Positions 3,272 through 35,741 of a DNA stretch of 37,519 nucleotides are shown here, piece after piece. This stretch comes from a virus. How positions within the stretch are numbered: the stretch's first letter is position 1; the number at the start of each line of letters is the position of its first letter. The notes under the pieces were generated by a model, which worked only from the letters and a program-made list of their open reading frames with translations, ran no database searches and had not been told where the DNA came from. Where the stretch lies: positions 1-37,519 of IMG/VR virus record IMGVR_UViG_3300048839_000973. The stretch is one strand, 5' to 3'. The position numbers and the translations under genes are program-made.

Positions 3272-4392
3272 TAGTCTGCGATTCGTTGAACAAACATTAA
3301 TACTCGATAGGGAGGCCGGTTCTCATGAGCCTGGCCGCCGCCTTCGGATGGGATTGCACCAGGTGCGGTAATAACATCCGGTTCGCCCGGAGTTACGTCG
3401 GTTGCAGCGGAGGTTTTGTTCTCCCCGGTCGTTGCCCGCCGGATCAGGCCAAACTCTCCCTCATCAATCGTTGATTCAGTGTGCTGGTGAGCCGGCATTT
3501 CGTTAATCGTAAGGGTGTGCGATTTCTCGCCGCCGGCCGCGCCAACATTCTTGTAATTCGCGTCCCATACCCCGCCGCCTGGATCGCTCGTGCGTGGATC
3601 GTACCCAACCGGGAAATATCCACGCAGATCAGTCGTGCCGTTGGCGCCGTTGCACAATGCCCAGCCGTGCCAGGCCCATTTTCCGAGGCCAGTGCCGTCG
3701 AACATGGCCGTATCTCCAAGGAACATTTGCACTGTTCCAAGCGGCGACATCTTCCTGCGGTAGCTGTATTCAATTCGATCCTTGGTGTACGGATCGAATG
3801 TGATATAATTGCCGCTGACAGGCTCTGAGGCGGTCCAGGTTCCATCTTCCTTGAAGTAGGCAGGGTAACTACCCGAATAACTTGGAGCTTCTACGTAAGC
3901 GCCTCCCAGGAAGGCAGCGCCGGCCGTAATGTCTACGCTTGCGCCGTCTACATCGCTCTCCATGCCAAAAATCACGTTTCCGTCTCCGAAGGTATTTCGG
4001 ATGATATCGATCAGGTTGGTGAGGGTTTCCGCACGGACCAGGTCGGCCCAGTTATTCGATCCCGGACCGCTCCCGAAACGCGCTTTCTTGGTGAAGTAGC
4101 GATCATAGAGCGTTCCGTTCTCGTTCGCCTTCTGCTCGGCGGTGGTTTCGATGATATAGGTAGCGCCTACGCTACCGCCTTCGAAAAAAATAAAGTCGCC
4201 GTCTTTCAAGATCCAGCCGTCGCCGGCCACGCCGCCGATGACCGTCAGGCCGCTAACGATCACATTGTCAGCGCCAGCCATCTTGGCCAGTCCCCGGACA
4301 GCATCCAGGTAGGCGCTTTGAAGAAACCCAAGCGTTGCATCGCTTTCGAGTGGAAATCCGTCCGGAGCCGTTGAAAAATCTGCGTAGTTCAT
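3271..4392 (-). CDS. Tail-collar-domain fibre protein
   Basis: 373 aa. The C-terminal third carries the phage tail-collar signature: GTVQMFLGD, then WALCNGANGTTDLRGYFPVG, then the MPAHQH motif and an ENRPPYRVLMFVQRI-type ending, as in short-tail-fibre and microcystin-dependent proteins. The N-terminal two thirds (residues 1-210) probably attach to the baseplate and form the shaft. It overlaps the upstream gene by 4 bases (4389-4392). The order J-like, gp48-like, then this gene is the order expected at the baseplate-to-fibre boundary. Assigned as a receptor-binding or fibre protein from the domain and its position. Confidence 0.8.
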   Translation of the reverse strand: MNYADFSTAPDGFPLESDATLGFLQSAYLDAVRGLAKMAGADNVIVSGLTVIGGVAGDGWILKDGDFIFFEGGSVGATYIIETTAEQKANENGTLYDRYFTKKARFGSGPGSNNWADLVRAETLTNLIDIIRNTFGDGNVIFGMESDVDGASVDITAGAAFLGGAYVEAPSYSGSYPAYFKEDGTWTASEPVSGNYITFDPYTKDRIEYSYRRKMSPLGTVQMFLGDTAMFDGTGLGKWAWHGWALCNGANGTTDLRGYFPVGYDPRTSDPGGGVWDANYKNVGAAGGEKSHTLTINEMPAHQHTESTIDEGEFGLIRRATTGENKTSAATDVTPGEPDVITAPGAIPSEGGGQAHENRPPYRVLMFVQRIAD

Positions 4393-4832
4393 TCGTATAT
4401 GATTCTGTAGCGCTTGGTTACTAATTTATACCGATCGACAAATCCTCTGATACTGCTTTCACTGCTTTGCATACCGTCCGGCAGGATCACCAGGAAGTCC
4501 ACCGACCGGCCGGAGAGGAAAACCGGCAAATACAACGGCCGGTTTTCCGACTCCAAAAAGATGAATACCGGCTGCCTGGCCTCCACATCTTCAACCTCGA
4601 TGCGCTGTAAGTCGGGGTCAAAGTTTTGATTCAGCCAGTATTGCAAAATTCGCTTTTGTCCGGTTATCGCCAATTCCTGATCCACATAGGCGCGGTACAG
4701 GTCGAACCGATTCAAAAGTATCGATATGGGATTGATAAAAGCCAGCAGCAAGGCTTTCAATTTCGGCTGATTGATCGCCGACCAAATGTTATTCCTGATC
4801 AGCCTTGTCCAGCTTACATCATACTTAGACAT
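4389..4832 (-). CDS. Baseplate/tail protein in the gp48 position
   Basis: 147 aa. I do not recognise a named domain. It follows the baseplate J-like gene with an 8-base overlap and precedes the collar-type fibre gene, the place held by gp48/gpI-type tail proteins that bridge baseplate and fibres. The sequence has an amphipathic helical N-terminal half (NQPKLKALLLAFINPISILL, then NRFDLYRAYVDQELAITGQK) and a beta-rich C-terminal half. The function is assigned by gene order only. The start at 4832 is supported by the tight overlap. Confidence 0.55.
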   Translation of the reverse strand: MSKYDVSWTRLIRNNIWSAINQPKLKALLLAFINPISILLNRFDLYRAYVDQELAITGQKRILQYWLNQNFDPDLQRIEVEDVEARQPVFIFLESENRPLYLPVFLSGRSVDFLVILPDGMQSSESSIRGFVDRYKLVTKRYRIIYE

Positions 4833-12435: not shown

Positions 12436-12450
12436 TTTTTTTTGGTTGTG

Positions 12451-12478
12451 GATTGACGGACATCACTGTCCGCCAATC
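12451..12478 (-). promoter_or_regulatory. 12-bp leader stem-loop upstream of the sheath start
   Basis: GATTGGCGGACA pairs with TGTCCGTCAATC (one G-T pair) around a GTGA loop. Only 15 nt of A-rich sequence separate it from the sheath ATG at 12435, and there is no T-run after the stem, so it is not a typical terminator. It is one of several stem-loops set at nearly the same distance from a start codon in this phage. Likely a structured mRNA leader or processing site. Confidence 0.6.
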
Positions 12479-12566
12479 CTTGATGATCCACCCGTTGTTT
12501 TTGCAATCAGGCGAAGGGCCGCCTCAACACCTACCTTGGTGGAGAGACAGCCCGCGCGCCGAGTTC

Positions 12567-21844: not shown

Positions 21845-22414
21845 TTATTTGTAGGCCACTATTCGCTTTATCTCTCCGTCCGATCCGATTACCGATGTGA
21901 TAGAATGATCGACTCGGGCATTGAATGCATTCTTTACGGAATATTGCAGAACTATGGTGGCGCTGTCTTTATCGATCGGGAAGATTCTCAGATCCTGCGT
22001 ACGGAAGCTATTCTTATTCACAAAATCAAAATTGTCCTTTATCCACAATTGATAGCTAACCAGCCAGTCGGATGACAACCCCATGTTTTGGTTATACCAT
22101 TCACGCAATTCATCCATGGTCATTTCCTCCATTGTCTTGGCCTCGGCCGGCGGTTCCTCTATTTTCGGCGGCGTGATGACTATTGCGAGTATCGTGAAAA
22201 TGGAGACACACACAAGCAGCACGCTGAATACATTCCATTCCCTCTTAATCTTCGGCGGCTCAACGCCCAAAATGTCGCGGGCGAAGGCGGCTTCCAGTTC
22301 AATGGCGGTCCTGCCCTTCTGAGTTGTCATTTTGTACTCCACGTTCATTTCTCGGAGCTTGTCTGTCCACTCCTTCAATTGTACGGTGGACGTCGGAACG
22401 ATGGTGGTTTTCAT
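21845..22414 (-). CDS. Single-pass membrane protein of unknown function
   Basis: 189 aa. A soluble N-terminal part (residues 1-60, containing TQKGRTAIELEAAFARDILG), one transmembrane helix (~66-84, WNVFSVLLVCVSIFTILAIV), an acidic linker with EEMTMDELREWYNQN, then a compact C-terminal domain (residues ~115-189, DLRIFPIDKDSATIVLQYSV...) expected outside the membrane. Convergent with the packaging operon and at the end of the accessory block. It contains a perfect DnaA box (22039-22047), probably by chance. No family recognised. Confidence 0.6.
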   Translation of the reverse strand: MKTTIVPTSTVQLKEWTDKLREMNVEYKMTTQKGRTAIELEAAFARDILGVEPPKIKREWNVFSVLLVCVSIFTILAIVITPPKIEEPPAEAKTMEEMTMDELREWYNQNMGLSSDWLVSYQLWIKDNFDFVNKNSFRTQDLRIFPIDKDSATIVLQYSVKNAFNARVDHSITSVIGSDGEIKRIVAYK

Positions 22415-23038: not shown

Positions 23039-23329
23039 TTAAAATAGTGATAATTGGCCTGTTCTCTCAAGAAAGACTTTATTGCCAATCGGTTCAATAG
23101 TAGCCCAATGGATGATCTTTGTCTTAATTGGGGCGTGCTCATGCAATAGTTCAATCCGTATCCTTGATGATGATGATCCGGGGATATATGTGGCATGCCA
23201 AAACGGGTGGAATTCATCCGGCAAAGTAAAACCTTCCCAAGTGGCATATGACAATGTTTCCATTAGCGTCGGTTTGAGCGGTAGCGGCTGTATGATTCTT
23301 TTTATTGTGTATTCCACCAGGTCTCTCAT
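23039..23329 (-). CDS. Small protein, unknown
   Basis: 96 aa, with an aromatic centre (LSYATWEGFTLPDEFHPFWH) and a beta-strand-rich C-terminal half (SRIRIELLHEHAPIKTKIIH). The start overlaps the stop of the 58-aa gene upstream (GCATGAGA), which argues for translational coupling and for both genes being real. No domain recognised. Confidence 0.55.
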   Translation of the reverse strand: MRDLVEYTIKRIIQPLPLKPTLMETLSYATWEGFTLPDEFHPFWHATYIPGSSSSRIRIELLHEHAPIKTKIIHWATIEPIGNKVFLERTGQLSLF

Positions 23330-23502
23330 GCCTGTTTATAGATTTTCTTAATCAGGTTATCCGCAACTTCCTTCCTGCGTTTAAAATCTTCCTTTGTGAT
23401 GCTACTTCGAAAGATTTCTATCATTGCAGCTAGTTTGATTTGATGGCTCCTAAGCGCCCGCAATAATTCCTCTTTCTCCTTTTCAGTGATTTCGATTTTC
23501 AT
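23326..23502 (-). CDS. 58-aa helical protein directly after the tRNA-like RNA
   Basis: 58 aa (MKIEITEKEKEELLRALRSH, then a second helix FRSSITKEDFKRRKEVADNL and a basic end). It is rich in Lys/Glu, all-helical and has a normal composition. Its ATG lies 19 nt after the 3' end of the tRNA-like structure, and its stop overlaps the next start by 4 bases, so it is probably co-transcribed with both. Function unknown; an RNA- or protein-binding role would fit the charge but is not shown. Confidence 0.55.
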   Translation of the reverse strand: MKIEITEKEKEELLRALRSHQIKLAAMIEIFRSSITKEDFKRRKEVADNLIKKIYKQA

Positions 23503-23521: not shown

Positions 23522-23654
23522 GGGGACAATGCAGGACTCGAACCTGCGCACCATAAGCGATAAACATCATGGCAGGGCTTACGTGGACTTATCAGGTCCT
23601 CTTTACCCGGACGGGGATATAATCCCCCGCTCTACCTACTGAGCTAATTGTCCC
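23522..23654 (-). tRNA. Unusual tRNA-like gene, 8-bp acceptor and very long variable region
   Basis: 133 nt. In 5'-3' order: GGGACAAT (acceptor, pairs with ATTGTCCC at the 3' end, 8 bp), TA, D arm GCTC-AGTAGGTA-GAGC, an arm with 7-nt loop ATTATAT between G and C runs (anticodon UAU if real), then about 65 nt. T arm GCAGG-TTCGAGT-CCTGC follows, then the acceptor 3' strand and an unpaired C. No CCA is encoded. The 65-nt insert contains a second anticodon-like hairpin, GGAC-CTGATAA-GTCC (GAU), and a third stem CCATGA/TTATGG. Both possible anticodons are Ile. Alternatively read as a 7-bp acceptor with G-1:C73 as in tRNA-His. It lies inside a run of co-directional small genes (7 nt after one, 19 nt before the next). 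It may be an odd tRNA or a tRNA-mimic leader. Confidence 0.65.
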
Positions 23655-23661
23655 ATGAAAA

Positions 23662-23868
23662 TCATTTGTAAAATTCATGCTCTGATTCTGCATTGTTGCA
23701 AACACACCGATCAAAAGGCCGGTTGCAATACGGGCATTTCTCTACCTCCTTTTTTTTGGAGGGCTTGCTCTCCTTCTCGCATTCGTCGAGGTAGTCGTTT
23801 AGGAAGATGCTGCATGGGCAGTCCGGCCAGGTGGCGCACTTTGGGGAACAGATGTCGTTTTTGGGCAT
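23662..23868 (-). CDS. Cysteine-rich small protein, probable zinc binding
   Basis: 68 aa. Two Cys clusters: CSPKCATWPDCPC (residues ~7-19) and CPYCNRPFDRCVC (~45-57), separated by a Lys/Glu/Ser-rich stretch with KPSKKKEVEK. CxxC spacings of this kind usually hold Zn2+. It ends 7 nt before the tRNA-like RNA. Treble-clef or zinc-ribbon folds are possible. The function is unknown. Confidence 0.6.
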   Translation of the reverse strand: MPKNDICSPKCATWPDCPCSIFLNDYLDECEKESKPSKKKEVEKCPYCNRPFDRCVCNNAESEHEFYK

Positions 23869-26103: not shown

Positions 26104-26135
26104 GATCGGGTGGGGAATCGAACCCCGGCCCGATC
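26104..26135 (-). ncRNA. tRNA-like minihelix (acceptor plus T arm only)
   Basis: On the minus strand GATCGGG and CCCGATC (7 bp) enclose a T-arm-like hairpin with GGGG / CCCC stem and the exact T-loop TTCGATT. This is the top half of a tRNA without D and anticodon arms. I searched the flanking ~250 bases by eye for a matching 5' acceptor and D arm and found none. It may be a remnant of a tRNA gene, an RNA mimic or, less likely, a coincidental hairpin. There is no T-run to make it a terminator. Confidence 0.5.
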
Positions 26136-28225: not shown

Positions 28226-28494
28226 TTGTTGCTAATTATGGCCAGGGTGTTGACCGGTTCACTATTTGTCTTTTTGATCAGTAGCTTTTCGTCTTCCGTT
28301 AGCTCCAGGTAGAAATCAATATCTTTCGGGTGCAGTTTGCGCATCTCTCGTTTTAGCATGAGCCACAGGTGGGTCATGTCTAGCGGCAGGTGCCCTTCCG
28401 TGTTTTTCTTTTCGACCATTCGGCGCGCTTCCGCCAGGATGGTTTCCTGTAATGCGCTGTTCGGTTTCAGTCCGTATTCAATCTTCCATTTCAT
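28222..28494 (-). CDS. Small helical protein, unknown
   Basis: 90 aa from the ATG at 28494 (MKWKIEYGLKPNSALQETIL), which overlaps the ATPase stop (ATGA); a longer frame would add an Arg-rich shadow. Helical and charged: AEARRMVEKKNTEGHLPLDM, LKREMRKLHPKDIDFYLELT. Coupled to the ATPase gene, so it may be its partner. Function unknown. Confidence 0.5.
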   Translation of the reverse strand: MKWKIEYGLKPNSALQETILAEARRMVEKKNTEGHLPLDMTHLWLMLKREMRKLHPKDIDFYLELTEDEKLLIKKTNSEPVNTLAIISNK

Positions 28495-29171
28495 CTTCCT
28501 CCCTGTTTTTCGCGTTCGGCCTGGGCGGCGGCTTTTGCAGCGGCCTCGGCTTCCATTCGTTTCTTCTGCCAATACTCGGGCCAGATCACATAAGTTTTGT
28601 TGCCGCCGAAGCGGCTGCGCGGGTAGGCTTTGTATTCGTGCACCCGCACCTTGATGTCGGCCATGTACTCAATGTCCTTTGCTGCCTGGAGCTTCGGCCG
28701 GCGGCCGGCGGCCCAGGCGGTGATGATGAAGCTTTTGTGTCCGAATCGGTCTACCAGTTCTTTGTACTGCTCTGTGGTCAGTTCCATGTAGTCGAGGCTG
28801 TCGATGATGCAAAACTTTGGGCTGTTCCGGCTGCCCATTCTTCGATATAGATCCTCGTAACCATCCTTGTCGCCTATGATCAGCTTTCCCTGCACTTCGT
28901 GCATGTCGTTGCGCATGAATGCTTTTTTGAGGCTTTCGCTCATGCCCTGCTCGAAGGAGTTCAGGTATACCTTTCCGAATTCGGCCAGGTACTTCGCGAA
29001 CTGCACGACGAATTCCGTTTTGCCGTTCCCGCTGTCTCCGTAAATCAACATTCGGAAGTTTCTTTCAACCTCCCCGAAGCTTTCCAGCCAATTGCCGTCA
29101 AAGTCGTATGTACTGAAATTCTTATTGAGCAGATCATTTACCCCAAAGGCGCGTTTCACTCTTCTACCCAT
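28491..29171 (-). CDS. RecA-like P-loop ATPase (Sak4/RecA-type recombinase or helicase)
   Basis: 226 aa. Walker A GDSGNGKT near residues 45-52 (MLIYGDSGNGKTEFVVQFAK), Walker B PKFCIIDSLDYMEL near 117-130, and AWAAGRRPKLQAAKDIEYMA near 150-170. This short RecA-core layout without a long extra domain resembles Sak4-type single-strand annealing proteins of phages. The C-terminus is an Ala/Glu/Lys coiled tail. It overlaps the DnaA-like gene by 8 bases upstream and the helical gene by 4 downstream, so it works in one unit with them, probably in DNA replication or recombination. Confidence 0.78.
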   Translation of the reverse strand: MGRRVKRAFGVNDLLNKNFSTYDFDGNWLESFGEVERNFRMLIYGDSGNGKTEFVVQFAKYLAEFGKVYLNSFEQGMSESLKKAFMRNDMHEVQGKLIIGDKDGYEDLYRRMGSRNSPKFCIIDSLDYMELTTEQYKELVDRFGHKSFIITAWAAGRRPKLQAAKDIEYMADIKVRVHEYKAYPRSRFGGNKTYVIWPEYWQKKRMEAEAAAKAAAQAEREKQGGR

Positions 29172-32319: not shown

Positions 32320-33231
32320 TTAATGAATCGTGCCGATCAACTCCCGCTGCACGATGCGCTTGAGCCGGCGCATGTCGTCGATCATCGGGAGGAACTTCCC
32401 GCCTACCATCACCTCTTTGGGCCCGCACTCCTTCCAGATGGCGTCTTGCTTCTCCTTTTCCGTGATGCCGTTGGCCTCGCAGATCTTCCGCATATCTGAT
32501 TTGCTTGCGCCATACAGTCGAATGAACTGGCGCCCGAGGCGGCTGTCTATCTCGTCGTATCCCTTCTTGTTGTAGCGCACTCCGCGCTTGATCTCCTCGC
32601 TCAGGTTCTCCGTTCCCAGGATGACCACGCCCAGGCGGTCCTCCGTTTCATTGTACAGCGGGATGAGGCTACGCAGGGCGGAGCCGTGCAGCTTGTCGGC
32701 CTCGTCGATGATCAGCAGGGGCCGGTATTCGTAGCGCACCAGGAAGAACTCTACGATCTCCGCCAGCAGGGTGTCGGCGCTCACGTAGCCGCGGGGCTGC
32801 TCAATGCCGAGCGTGCGGCACAGTTCGGTAAGGAACTGCTTTACGCTCCACTCCCGGCAGTGGATGTAGTACACCTGCTCGCGCTTGTACTTGCTGAAGA
32901 AAAGGAGGCTGCCGGCCGTCTTTCCGCTGCCGGCTTTGTGGCTTACGCACATCATCATGCTGTGCTTTTTGGCGTCGAGAAAGGTGGTTTCCAATACGCG
33001 GGTATTGAAGATGTTCTCTACCAGCACCCAGCCGTCGTCTTCCCGGTGGCCGAGACTGGCGGCGATCTTGCGCCACATATTGTCGGCGATCTGATCCCAC
33101 TTCTCGTTCATCACATGGGAGATCGTGGCGGTGCTTACGCCCGCTTTGGTCGCGGTGGCCCGCTGGCCTCCGAGGTGGTCAATGCTGTCGGCTACCAGGG
33201 CCTGGATCTTTCTTTTTTGTTCGGTTCTCAT
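32320..33231 (-). CDS. MuB-like ATPase, transposition target selector
   Basis: 303 aa. N-terminal HTH-type region (residues 1-60: HLGGQRATATKAGVSTATIS, NMWRKIAASLG), Walker A SHKAGSGKT near 100-108, Walker B RPLLIIDEADKL near 175-186, and DSRLGRQFIRLYGASKSDMR near 240. These are the domain order and motifs of MuB/IstB-like AAA+ proteins. It binds target DNA, stimulates the transposase and gives target immunity. It follows the transposase stop at 33248 by 16 bases. Confidence 0.88.
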   Translation of the reverse strand: MRTEQKRKIQALVADSIDHLGGQRATATKAGVSTATISHVMNEKWDQIADNMWRKIAASLGHREDDGWVLVENIFNTRVLETTFLDAKKHSMMMCVSHKAGSGKTAGSLLFFSKYKREQVYYIHCREWSVKQFLTELCRTLGIEQPRGYVSADTLLAEIVEFFLVRYEYRPLLIIDEADKLHGSALRSLIPLYNETEDRLGVVILGTENLSEEIKRGVRYNKKGYDEIDSRLGRQFIRLYGASKSDMRKICEANGITEKEKQDAIWKECGPKEVMVGGKFLPMIDDMRRLKRIVQRELIGTIH

Positions 33232-33247
33232 CGTTATTATAATTTTG

Positions 33248-35353
33248 TCAATAGTTGCGAATCACTTGTAAGTCGATATCCTCGTCGTCATCTTCGATAC
33301 GGGGCCGGCGGCCGGCCGGCTTTTCTATGCGGCGCTCTTCGCCCCGGTCTACCCACACGGCCGCCCGGTCTTCCAGCCACCTGGTCTGAGCATCGTCGGT
33401 TGTAGTCTTGTCAATGTGAGCCGCCATGAGCAGATCTACTTCATCGCCTGTTCCGGCTATCACTGCTTCCAGTTCCTCTTTGCGGCGCTCCCGGATCTGT
33501 CGGCGGGCGGCTTTCATTTTGGACATCCGCTCAAAGTCGGCGTCCGGCCCGTAGTATTGCACGGCCTGCTCCTCGATGGCCTCGCCCAGGAAGAGCGAGT
33601 TTACATCGTCGCCCGGCGCGAACAGGTACACTTTTGACAGGTCGTCCAGGTCGTAGTAGACATTTACCTTCTTGTAGTTGGCAATGATCTCGTAATCCTC
33701 AATGCGATATACATAGTCGGCTTTGTGGATGCGCATCCTGATCAGACCGTTGTTTCGGATCGTCTCGCTGCGCATGGTTCCGAATAGTTCGATGCGGCAG
33801 CAATCGTCGATCGGGTGTACGTTCGGCGTCTCGCTCATCATATACAGTTCCTTCGGGCTTTCCTTTACGGTCGAGTTCTTCCGGCTGTATTCGCATAGCG
33901 GCGTGGTGCGGTAGTTGTTCACCACGGCGGCGGCGGCGCGCCAGGCCATGTCAAAGTCGAAACCTTCACGCCTGGCGGCCTTCTTTGCGCTCGCCAAATA
34001 CTCCGGGCTGCGGTGCGCGGCTTCGCGGCTGCTCTGTACGCCCTGACCGTAGAACCATTTGAAATCCTGCATAAATACATCTTGCAGGGTAGAGAAGCAT
34101 CTCTCCAGGTGGCTCTTACTAGTTGCCGTACTCGTTACGGTTACCTTCACTCCTTCGCGCTCCATGCGCCTGGTAAGCAGCGTCCATTCGTCGGTATTGT
34201 GGCCTGGGAACCGGTCGTGTACCAGTTCGTAAGGCAGGTGCCCCGTGTAGACCACCGCCATGTTGAGGGCGTGAATGTAGGCGTAGCGATCCTCCTTCGT
34301 GTCAAAATGGAAGCCGATCAGGTCGCCGCTGTGCACGTCTCGCACGGCTACGATTATCATGCTCCGTTCCTTCCCATCGGAGGAACTGTGGGGGATGAAG
34401 TTGATTCGGGTGCCGTCCATCTGCCAGCAGTCGCCGGCGTAGAGGGCGCCGGCGATGGGGAGGTAATCCCGGTAGTCGGCGCCCTTGCGTCCGCTGCGAT
34501 GGCGGGCCGCGCCCGTCAGCCACTTGCTGCGTGGCCGGCTGAAGTAATGCGTTATCCAACTCTCGCTCGGCGACTCTTTGCGGGCTATCTGGCACATCTT
34601 TAAGATGCGTCTTGCTATGTGCGCATTACTGTAGTTCTCGGGGCGGCTGCGCAGGTACATCATCCAGCCTATCACCTGCTCGTCGCTATAGGGTTGCCGA
34701 TTGTTGTTGTTCTTCCGCGGCAGCTTGATTACCTTCGTCACCTTCTTTCCTTTCACCACTCTCATGATCTTCTCCTTCAGCCGGCGGTAGTTCTTCGGAA
34801 GGTATACCCAGCCGCGCCGCTTGATCACGCTCGATAGGTTGCGGTAGTAGTCGTTGCTGCTGGTTGGCTCCATCGCGGAGATCTCCCGCGCCGCGAACTG
34901 TATGACCGCACAGGCCCGCGCCAGGTGCTCGGCCTGCAAATCGGTGCAGCCGGCGTAGGCTTTTAGCCAGGGGCTCAGGTCTTTCAAGTATTCCAGCAGA
35001 TCGCTTTCCATGCTGCTCTGTACGTTGCTCTTCATGGCCTTCTCGTAGCGGGCCAATAACTCCTCCTTCGGCGGCAACTGCCGCTTCCGGTTGTCGGGCA
35101 GCCGGTCGTAGTCGTAGTAGAACACGTTCCGCTTGCGGGCGTAGCGCCAGCTTGCGCCGGTGTCCGGCAATACTGCTTGCTTGCGCCGGCGTTCACCTGT
35201 CACGGTGTTCAGGTAGTTATAGCGGTGCTTTGTTCTCAGCTTGTACTCGGTAAGTCCTTTGATTGATTCCACAAGGAATCCTTCACTGATCCAAACGACC
35301 ACTCGTTTGTCACGTTCCCGGCGCGTCCATATGTCTTTTTTCTGAAATTGCAT
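33248..35353 (-). CDS. MuA-like DDE transposase
   Basis: 701 aa from the ATG at 35353 (MQFQKKDIWTRRERDKRVVV). Longer readings cross a stem-loop and lack sense. N-terminal winged-helix/end-binding domains (to ~300), then the RNase H-like core with the DDE triad: Asp313 in WQMDGTRINF, Asp380 in VHDRFPGHN, Glu417 in SHLERCFSTL. The Asp-Asp spacing of 67 residues equals that of Mu transposase; the last acid is closer than in Mu. The C-terminal beta-barrel and tail (with ...EDDDEDIDLQVIRNY) would contact MuB. It carries out integration and replicative transposition using the phage ends. First large gene of the early operon. Confidence 0.92.
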   Translation of the reverse strand: MQFQKKDIWTRRERDKRVVVWISEGFLVESIKGLTEYKLRTKHRYNYLNTVTGERRRKQAVLPDTGASWRYARKRNVFYYDYDRLPDNRKRQLPPKEELLARYEKAMKSNVQSSMESDLLEYLKDLSPWLKAYAGCTDLQAEHLARACAVIQFAAREISAMEPTSSNDYYRNLSSVIKRRGWVYLPKNYRRLKEKIMRVVKGKKVTKVIKLPRKNNNNRQPYSDEQVIGWMMYLRSRPENYSNAHIARRILKMCQIARKESPSESWITHYFSRPRSKWLTGAARHRSGRKGADYRDYLPIAGALYAGDCWQMDGTRINFIPHSSSDGKERSMIIVAVRDVHSGDLIGFHFDTKEDRYAYIHALNMAVVYTGHLPYELVHDRFPGHNTDEWTLLTRRMEREGVKVTVTSTATSKSHLERCFSTLQDVFMQDFKWFYGQGVQSSREAAHRSPEYLASAKKAARREGFDFDMAWRAAAAVVNNYRTTPLCEYSRKNSTVKESPKELYMMSETPNVHPIDDCCRIELFGTMRSETIRNNGLIRMRIHKADYVYRIEDYEIIANYKKVNVYYDLDDLSKVYLFAPGDDVNSLFLGEAIEEQAVQYYGPDADFERMSKMKAARRQIRERRKEELEAVIAGTGDEVDLLMAAHIDKTTTDDAQTRWLEDRAAVWVDRGEERRIEKPAGRRPRIEDDDEDIDLQVIRNY

Positions 35354-35462
35354 ATGACGGGATACGTTTATCGTTGTGTAATGGAGGGGGTGAGGGAATA
35401 GATATGGTACATCTTGTTTATCCTGGATTATTTTGTTAGTAGTTGTTACCTTAGTGGAAAAG

Positions 35463-35484
35463 AAGGCCGGCCGAAACCGGCCTT
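35463..35484 (-). terminator. Perfect 8-bp GC-rich stem-loop upstream of the transposase
   Basis: AAGGCCGG / CCGGCCTT around a six-base loop, followed on the minus strand by CTTTTCCACTAA. The same tail CCTTTTGTCCCACTAA follows the stem-loop at 35839-35863. It lies 109 nt upstream of the MuA ATG. A TAGATTTG box (35508-35501) sits 16 bases upstream, so it could be a 5'-terminal hairpin of the transposase transcript or an attenuator. On the plus strand it lies 26 nt before the ATG at 35511. Confidence 0.6.
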
Positions 35485-35500
35485 CATCACGATCAAAAAA

Positions 35501-35508
35501 CAAATCTA
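35501..35508 (-). promoter_or_regulatory. Candidate Bacteroidota -7 box (TAGATTTG)
   Basis: Matches TAnnTTTG, the -7 consensus of Bacteroidota primary promoters. I see no TTTG at the expected -33 distance, so it is weak. It would start transcription just before the stem-loop 35463-35484 and feed the transposase operon. Confidence 0.3.
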
Positions 35509-35510
35509 TT

Positions 35511-35741
35511 ATGAAAGAATCTCTCCCTGAGTTGTTGCTAGACGGGTTGCAACCCATCTTCCATCAAGTAGTTTCAAATGCCGCCAGGTCTCGCGCCATT
35601 GAAGAAATACTCATTCATCACGACCTTTCGGCGATGCCCCCCGATCAACGTGCTGAGTTGATTCGGGAGAAGACGGATCATTACTATGAGTATTATCAAA
35701 CTTTGCTGAACGAACAGGTTCAATCAAGGTTCGGCAAATAA
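35511..35741 (+). CDS. Small plus-strand ORF, unknown
   Basis: 76 aa from ATG 35511 (MKESLPELLLDGLQPIFHQV, then SRAIEEILIHHDLSAMPPDQ and RAELIREKTDHYYEYYQTLL). A well-formed helical protein, in the opposite direction to its neighbours and overlapping the minus-strand ORF at 35611-35814 by 131 bases. One of the two may be spurious. The amino-acid composition here looks more like a natural protein along its entire length. Confidence 0.5.
   Translation: MKESLPELLLDGLQPIFHQVVSNAARSRAIEEILIHHDLSAMPPDQRAELIREKTDHYYEYYQTLLNEQVQSRFGK

Follow-up and report, generated by a model that had tools for sequence, protein, structure and literature searches.

The element at positions 23522-23654 (minus strand) of the window, the whole 37,519-nt stretch of viral DNA that was analysed, is read here as an intercistronic mimic of the tRNA top half in a Mu-like early operon. 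It is a probable signal for processing by RNase P and by an enzyme of tRNA 3′ ends, and the probability of this reading is roughly one half. The element has no close homologue, and its shape, place, and strand make it likely to belong with the tRNA-like elements of related phages.

This IMG/VR virus contig of 37.5 kb encodes a MuA-type transposase (33248-35557, minus strand; phrog_310, E 4e-36), a MuB-type DNA transposition protein (32320-33231, minus strand; phrog_296, E 4.7e-40), a GemA-like early gene, terminase, portal, tail sheath, and tape measure. By its gene content it is a Mu-like (transposable) phage, and we infer a Bacteroidota host from portal relatives in Porphyromonas, Bacteroides, Flavobacterium, and Capnocytophaga. 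The early operon also contains an AAA ATPase gene (28491-29171, minus strand), which was the anchor for finding relatives. The element is intergenic, lies on the early-gene strand (minus, with MuA and AAA) inside a variable stretch, and is flanked by two small ORFs with no PHROG or Pfam match. The upstream Cys-rich ORF of 68 aa (23662-23868, minus strand) has its stop 7 nt before the element, and the downstream ORF of 58 aa (23326-23502, minus strand) has its ATG 19 nt past it. These are the distances given by an earlier, sequence-only reading of the DNA, and the element is probably cotranscribed with its neighbours. Only one of the small ORFs up to about 3 kb away (21845-22414) has a homologue among the relatives compared. 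These include the closest phage (L002), which has no tRNA match at the syntenic place. Exact-pattern searches of IMG/VR gave no viral contig with the D half of the element or with its T half plus acceptor, and BLAST of the element against cultured phages returned just short tRNA-like matches. Inside the 68-aa ORF, a c-di-GMP-II riboswitch match (23708-23758, minus strand; 24.6 bits) is below the gathering threshold of 53.5 and is probably due to chance.

The frame of the element is that of a tRNA and exceeds chance. Its minus-strand order is GGGACAAT-TA-GCTC-AGTAGGTA-GAGC-[81 nt]-GCAGG-TTCGAGT-CCTGC-ATTGTCCC-C. The 5′ strand of the acceptor stem, GGGACAAT (23647-23654), forms 8 of 8 Watson-Crick pairs with the 3′ strand, ATTGTCCC (23523-23530). 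The D arm GCTC-AGTAGGTA-GAGC (23629-23644) has a GG of the G18-G19 type in the Rfam alignment, and the T arm GCAGG-TTCGAGT-CCTGC (23531-23547) has 5 of 5 pairs and a canonical T loop, all on the minus strand. The 8 acceptor, 4 D, and 5 T pairs are thus all intact (17/17). The Rfam tRNA model RF00005 matches 23523-23653 (minus strand) with 44.6 bits and an E-value of 1.8e-6 for a search of the whole window, and in this match the aligned anticodon arm is followed by an insertion of about 60 nt. These results bear out the acceptor, D, and T arms of the sequence-only reading, including the 8-bp acceptor and the 5-bp T stem, and folding, which it had named as a check, also comes out in favour, as the whole 133-nt RNA folds better than shuffled sequence (z -3.56). 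The D arm, the T arm, and the canonical loops are those expected at the top of an elongator tRNA, with an acceptor of 8 bp if G-1:C73 is counted. The 8+5 split is regarded as ordinary variation, since the acceptor and T stems of related elements total about 12 bp however they are divided.

The lower half is non-canonical and comprises 81 nt (23548-23628, minus strand) in the place of an anticodon arm and variable loop of about 23 nt. This core alone folds at the level of shuffled sequence (z -1.38; 88 of 1000 dinucleotide shuffles fold as well), and the lower halves of the relatives vary freely. A plausible UAU anticodon arm and a second anticodon-like hairpin with GAU had been described in it. 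Both occur in the MFE structure, as GGGG-ATTATAT-CCCC (23613-23627, minus strand) and GGAC-CTGATAA-GTCC (23585-23599, minus strand); the first can pair as 4 bp with a 7-nt loop or as 6 bp with a 3-nt loop, and the second has 4 bp and 7 nt. Because the core folds no better than its shuffles, neither hairpin is supported and both are within chance. A recurring H1-H2-H3 hairpin architecture, first seen in L040, L172, and L205, was dropped, as the window core folds like shuffled sequence.

ARAGORN, another check named, detects no tRNA in the element by default, and with introns allowed it gives only an implausible Asn(AUU) model. Its tmRNA mode finds nothing, and the element does not match a tmRNA, in which tRNA-like ends surround a tag-encoding region. 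ARAGORN and an insert-removal test reveal no 5-bp anticodon stem with a 7-nt loop and U33, followed by a variable loop of 4-20 nt, even with one split insert permitted. With no canonical anticodon arm, the element does not match a functional elongator tRNA. Phage-encoded tRNAs have the Rfam tRNA match and the canonical D and T arms in common with the element, but differ from its 81-nt core without a canonical anticodon arm. Bacterial tRNA-Sec and allo-tRNA share the 8-bp acceptor and the 5-bp T stem, whereas the element lacks a UCA anticodon, has a D stem of 4 bp without extension, and shows no supported long variable-arm helix. The Rfam tRNA-Sec model reports nothing at its gathering threshold in the window. 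The suggestion of an allo-tRNA, tRNA-Sec, or tRNA-His is not sustained, as there is neither a UCA or GUG anticodon nor a long D stem.

Related elements were sought among portal relatives and early AAA ATPase relatives by an acceptor and a T arm, with no anticodon arm required. This gives 24 matches in real sequence versus 5 in reversed sequence. The matches include tRNA-like elements of ordinary length, long forms of 111 nt (L065), 153 nt (L040), and 155 nt (L253), and bare minihelices of 42-48 nt (L242, L266, L062, and L019), to which genomic prophages add two of 43 and 44 nt (L317 and L314). Their shared design is a T-loop-capped helix of about 12 bp with GG in the linker, and the interval from acceptor to T arm ranges from about 11 nt in the 42-nt minihelices up to about 120 nt. 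The covariance model R1 reveals several minihelices per phage, four each in L243 and L263 and three each in L241, L244, L245, and L238, nearly all on the early-gene strand, and an operon contains up to 4-5 copies. With the window element, R1 gives a partial match of 14.3 bits (E 0.64). A weaker R1 match (12.8 bits, E 1.5) is a second, degenerate T-loop hairpin, GATCGGG-C-CGGGG-TTCGATT-CCCCA-CCCGATC followed by GCAA (26104-26135, minus strand), and 23522-23654 is the sole full element in the operon of this phage. The minihelix loci match no Rfam family, and BLAST of minihelices in cultured phages gives no full-length match. Across 395 genomes from the phylum to which Capnocytophaga felis belongs, a minihelix model (R2) finds only weak matches, and the strongest looks like an ordinary host tRNA.

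Both forms occur in one phage, where a minihelix (L230, 6733-6776, plus strand) is found beside the 153-nt element of L040 on the same contig. The elements of L040 (18710-18862, minus strand; 153 nt) and L253 (7234-7388, plus strand; 155 nt) have a Leu-like D arm and a lower-half motif in common, TAGCC-hairpin-GGAGTT-..-AGAGAAA, which suggests that some lower halves may have a function. Just upstream of the tail sheath gene, a normal CAU tRNA is found in several relatives (loci compared: L003, L005, L009, L038, and L313), L019 has a 48-nt minihelix (4577-4624, minus strand), and L002 has a degenerate minihelix (4343-4389, minus strand). At the same place, the window has a 12-bp hairpin with a non-T loop and then ACAA (12450-12479, minus strand). 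The tRNA-like elements of two Mu-like phages (L005, 14154-14304, and L076, 16320-16391, both minus strand) have abnormal anticodon loops of about 6 and about 8 nt, and downstream of the L005 pair there is a terminator-like hairpin with a T run.

The length of the helix is nearly constant. A scan that leaves the division between acceptor and T stem open gives 21 matches in real sequence versus 0 in reversed sequence, and 12 of the 21 total exactly 12 bp, split as 7+5, 6+6, or 5+7. The IMG/VR contigs behind the following counts are non-independent samples: a pattern scan gives 117 matches, with a total of 12 bp in 67 of the 90 copies whose stem is measurable (it is not in 27); all copies are on one strand in each of the stretches with several copies (14/14); and, where a Mu early gene is in the same stretch, 72 elements are on its strand and 0 are opposed. 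A start codon usually follows the pattern-scan copies by 13-30 nt, compared to 19 nt in the window, and the bases directly after the copies are mostly ACAA or GCAA, whereas the window element is followed by CTAA. Among 61 loci scanned, 21 contain a total of 30 elements, with 26 versus 1 in favour of the early strand, and the reversed control yields 4. A set of 16 minihelices has 28 double-changed cells, a value as high as none of 500 shuffles reaches, and the pairing collapses once the partners are slid; since members were picked by pairing, the pairing counts alone are partly circular, whereas the controls, the slid-partner test, the strand, and the position are independent. The minihelix is very probably a real element. 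The window element has the same characteristics, with 12-13 bp, TTCGAGT as the T loop (TTCRANY), GG in AGTAGGTA, and an intergenic place on the early strand shortly before an ATG.

In the Porphyromonas gingivalis phage BK068093, the 61-locus scan places an element at 3407-3526, 16 nt before the transposase gene, and there are ten related records. In six of these P. gingivalis phage records the D arm, T arm, and acceptor are nearly invariant; the lower half is about 21 nt long in four phages, and the other two have one of about 70 nt. No other locus indicates as clearly that the lower half is exchangeable. The passages retrieved from the paper on the Porphyromonas phages mention tRNA genes only as integration sites (PMC10367356). 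The Bacteroides hankyphage p00 contains an 82-nt element in its early region that is conserved in 17 records, annotated as tRNA-Arg in some and unannotated in others, and ARAGORN detects no tRNA in one copy of it. Finders of tRNA both overlook and misname such elements, as the hankyphage annotations exemplify.

In the proposed mechanism, the essential part would be the top half, where the acceptor is stacked on the T stem as a helix of about 12 bp beneath a TTCGANT cap. This loop could dock with a GG from the D loop or from a short linker, and the decoding half would be free of constraint, absent in some elements and enlarged in the window. Host RNase P would recognise the top half in the early transcript and cut its 5′ side, and a tRNA 3′-end nuclease would cut behind the element. 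The element would thereby be released, and the following gene would be left with a new 5′ end some 20 nt upstream of its start codon. Processing by these two activities is suggested by the constant 12 bp, the retention of the GG and the T loop, the dispensable decoding half, the operon strand, and the place before start codons. RNase P as the agent is tentative, at slightly less than an even chance; EF-Tu, the CCA-adding enzyme, and other tRNA-binding proteins also read the tRNA top half, which counts against it. The bare 42-nt top halves of the relatives are probably RNA-processing signals rather than decoding tRNAs, and the window element would perform the same job. A wider scheme, in which minihelices (42-46 nt, GG linker) and larger tRNA-like versions are repeated punctuation marks where host RNase P cuts the early operon mRNA of Bacteroidota Mu-like phages, is possible and more tentative. 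Among the options of the sequence-only reading, a tRNA mimic acting as a 5′ leader fits best, in line with the tRNA-like elements of the relatives, which are intergenic, on the early-gene strand, and usually a short way before an ATG.

Plant-mitochondrial t-elements are tRNA-like structures that mark intergenic cleavage sites adjoining protein genes (PMC8003010). The phage elements have tRNA-like secondary structures between genes in common with them, and the window element likewise has a tRNA-like acceptor and T helix between genes with which it is probably cotranscribed. The t-elements are organellar and cut by PRORP/RNase Z, whereas the phage elements are encoded by phages, and no description of phage t-elements was found in the open-access literature. 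Host RNase P also cuts the phage C4 and M3 RNAs and the T4 gene 32 mRNA (PMC11143913). The C4 antisense RNA, M3 RNA, and T4 gene 32 mRNA are similar in being phage transcripts processed by RNase P, a cleavage that is proposed for the present elements, but that paper does not present them as a tRNA top half repeated between early genes. A minimal RNase P substrate with 12 bp and a T loop has the same architecture as the minihelices (PMC11143913); such substrates are synthetic, whereas the phage minihelices are genome-encoded, mostly with a GG linker.

An uncleaved structured 5′ leader could instead control the translation of the following early gene or its stability, perhaps by way of a protein that binds tRNA tops (EF-Tu, the CCA-adding enzyme, a synthetase, or a phage protein). 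The usual 13-30 nt to the ATG and the multiple copies per operon agree with such a leader. It is unlikely, as by itself it does not account for a total that stays at 12 bp wherever the split lies, a feature that suits a length-measuring processing enzyme (PMC11143913). A decaying phage tRNA with no present function is somewhat less probable again. The single copy, the lack of a close homologue, the abnormal core, and the normal CAU tRNAs of relatives are consistent with decay; in contrast, the 17 pairs of the acceptor, D, and T stems are all intact, the lower half alone is abnormal, and the minihelices of relatives covary and hold their strand and place.

Phage tRNAs with inserts are found in IMG/VR, where a scan for a tRNA D arm and T arm 60-90 nt apart gives at least 121 places. 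Among the matches listed, 57 of 121 places have a perfect 7-bp acceptor and 5-bp T stem, whereas about one perfect acceptor is expected from permuted 3′ acceptor strands. Removal of one insert leaves a canonical anticodon arm in 33 of 66 well-paired cases among the matches listed (3.8 by chance), and in these 33 the insert is usually within the 5′ strand of the anticodon stem. Phage tRNA genes in which about 40-55 extra nt split the anticodon stem on its 5′ strand are present in L105 (9330-9444, minus strand), L123 (1483-1596, plus strand), L175 (7767-7877, minus strand), L188 (471-582, plus strand), L090 (4111-4237, minus strand), L098 (1068-1190, minus strand), and others. By eye there are two types of insert, a hairpin then CAGCAA and another ending in GTTAC or GTTAT. 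Rfam detects tRNA only at these loci, which could represent a class of small tRNA introns. Such tRNAs, and the resemblance of GGAC-CTGATAA-GTCC to an Ile(GAU) arm, would accord with a window element whose intron-like insert is spliced out to give a working Ile tRNA. However, no single excision gives the window element a canonical 5-bp/7-nt anticodon arm, and it is not an insert-type tRNA because it is outside the single-insert rule. The GAU hairpin as anticodon arm would require two separate inserts, the core folds at chance level, and relatives have elements at comparable places without any anticodon arm. An intron is hence improbable, and the split or inserted tRNA suggested earlier breaks the rule that fits 33 of 66 long-core phage tRNAs among the matches listed. 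A decoy for host defences that cut or modify tRNAs, or a stable scaffold whose lower half carries an RNA, is very improbable despite the hypervariable cargo region, the neighbours without homologues in the nearest phage, the 70-nt lower half retained in two Porphyromonas phages, and the L040/L253 lower-half motif, as most elements of relatives have no lower half and a decoy would not predict a fixed place before genes.

If the reading as a processed top-half mimic is true, the minimal natural tRNA mimic would consist of 12 bp, a T loop, and GG, a natural form of the laboratory minimal substrate of RNase P. The elements would provide a genome-encoded test of the long-standing idea that RNase P measures its substrate, and evolution would be seen to remove or swap the decoding half while the remainder is kept. 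They would represent a tRNA-punctuation system of bacteriophages, the counterpart of mitochondrial tRNA punctuation.
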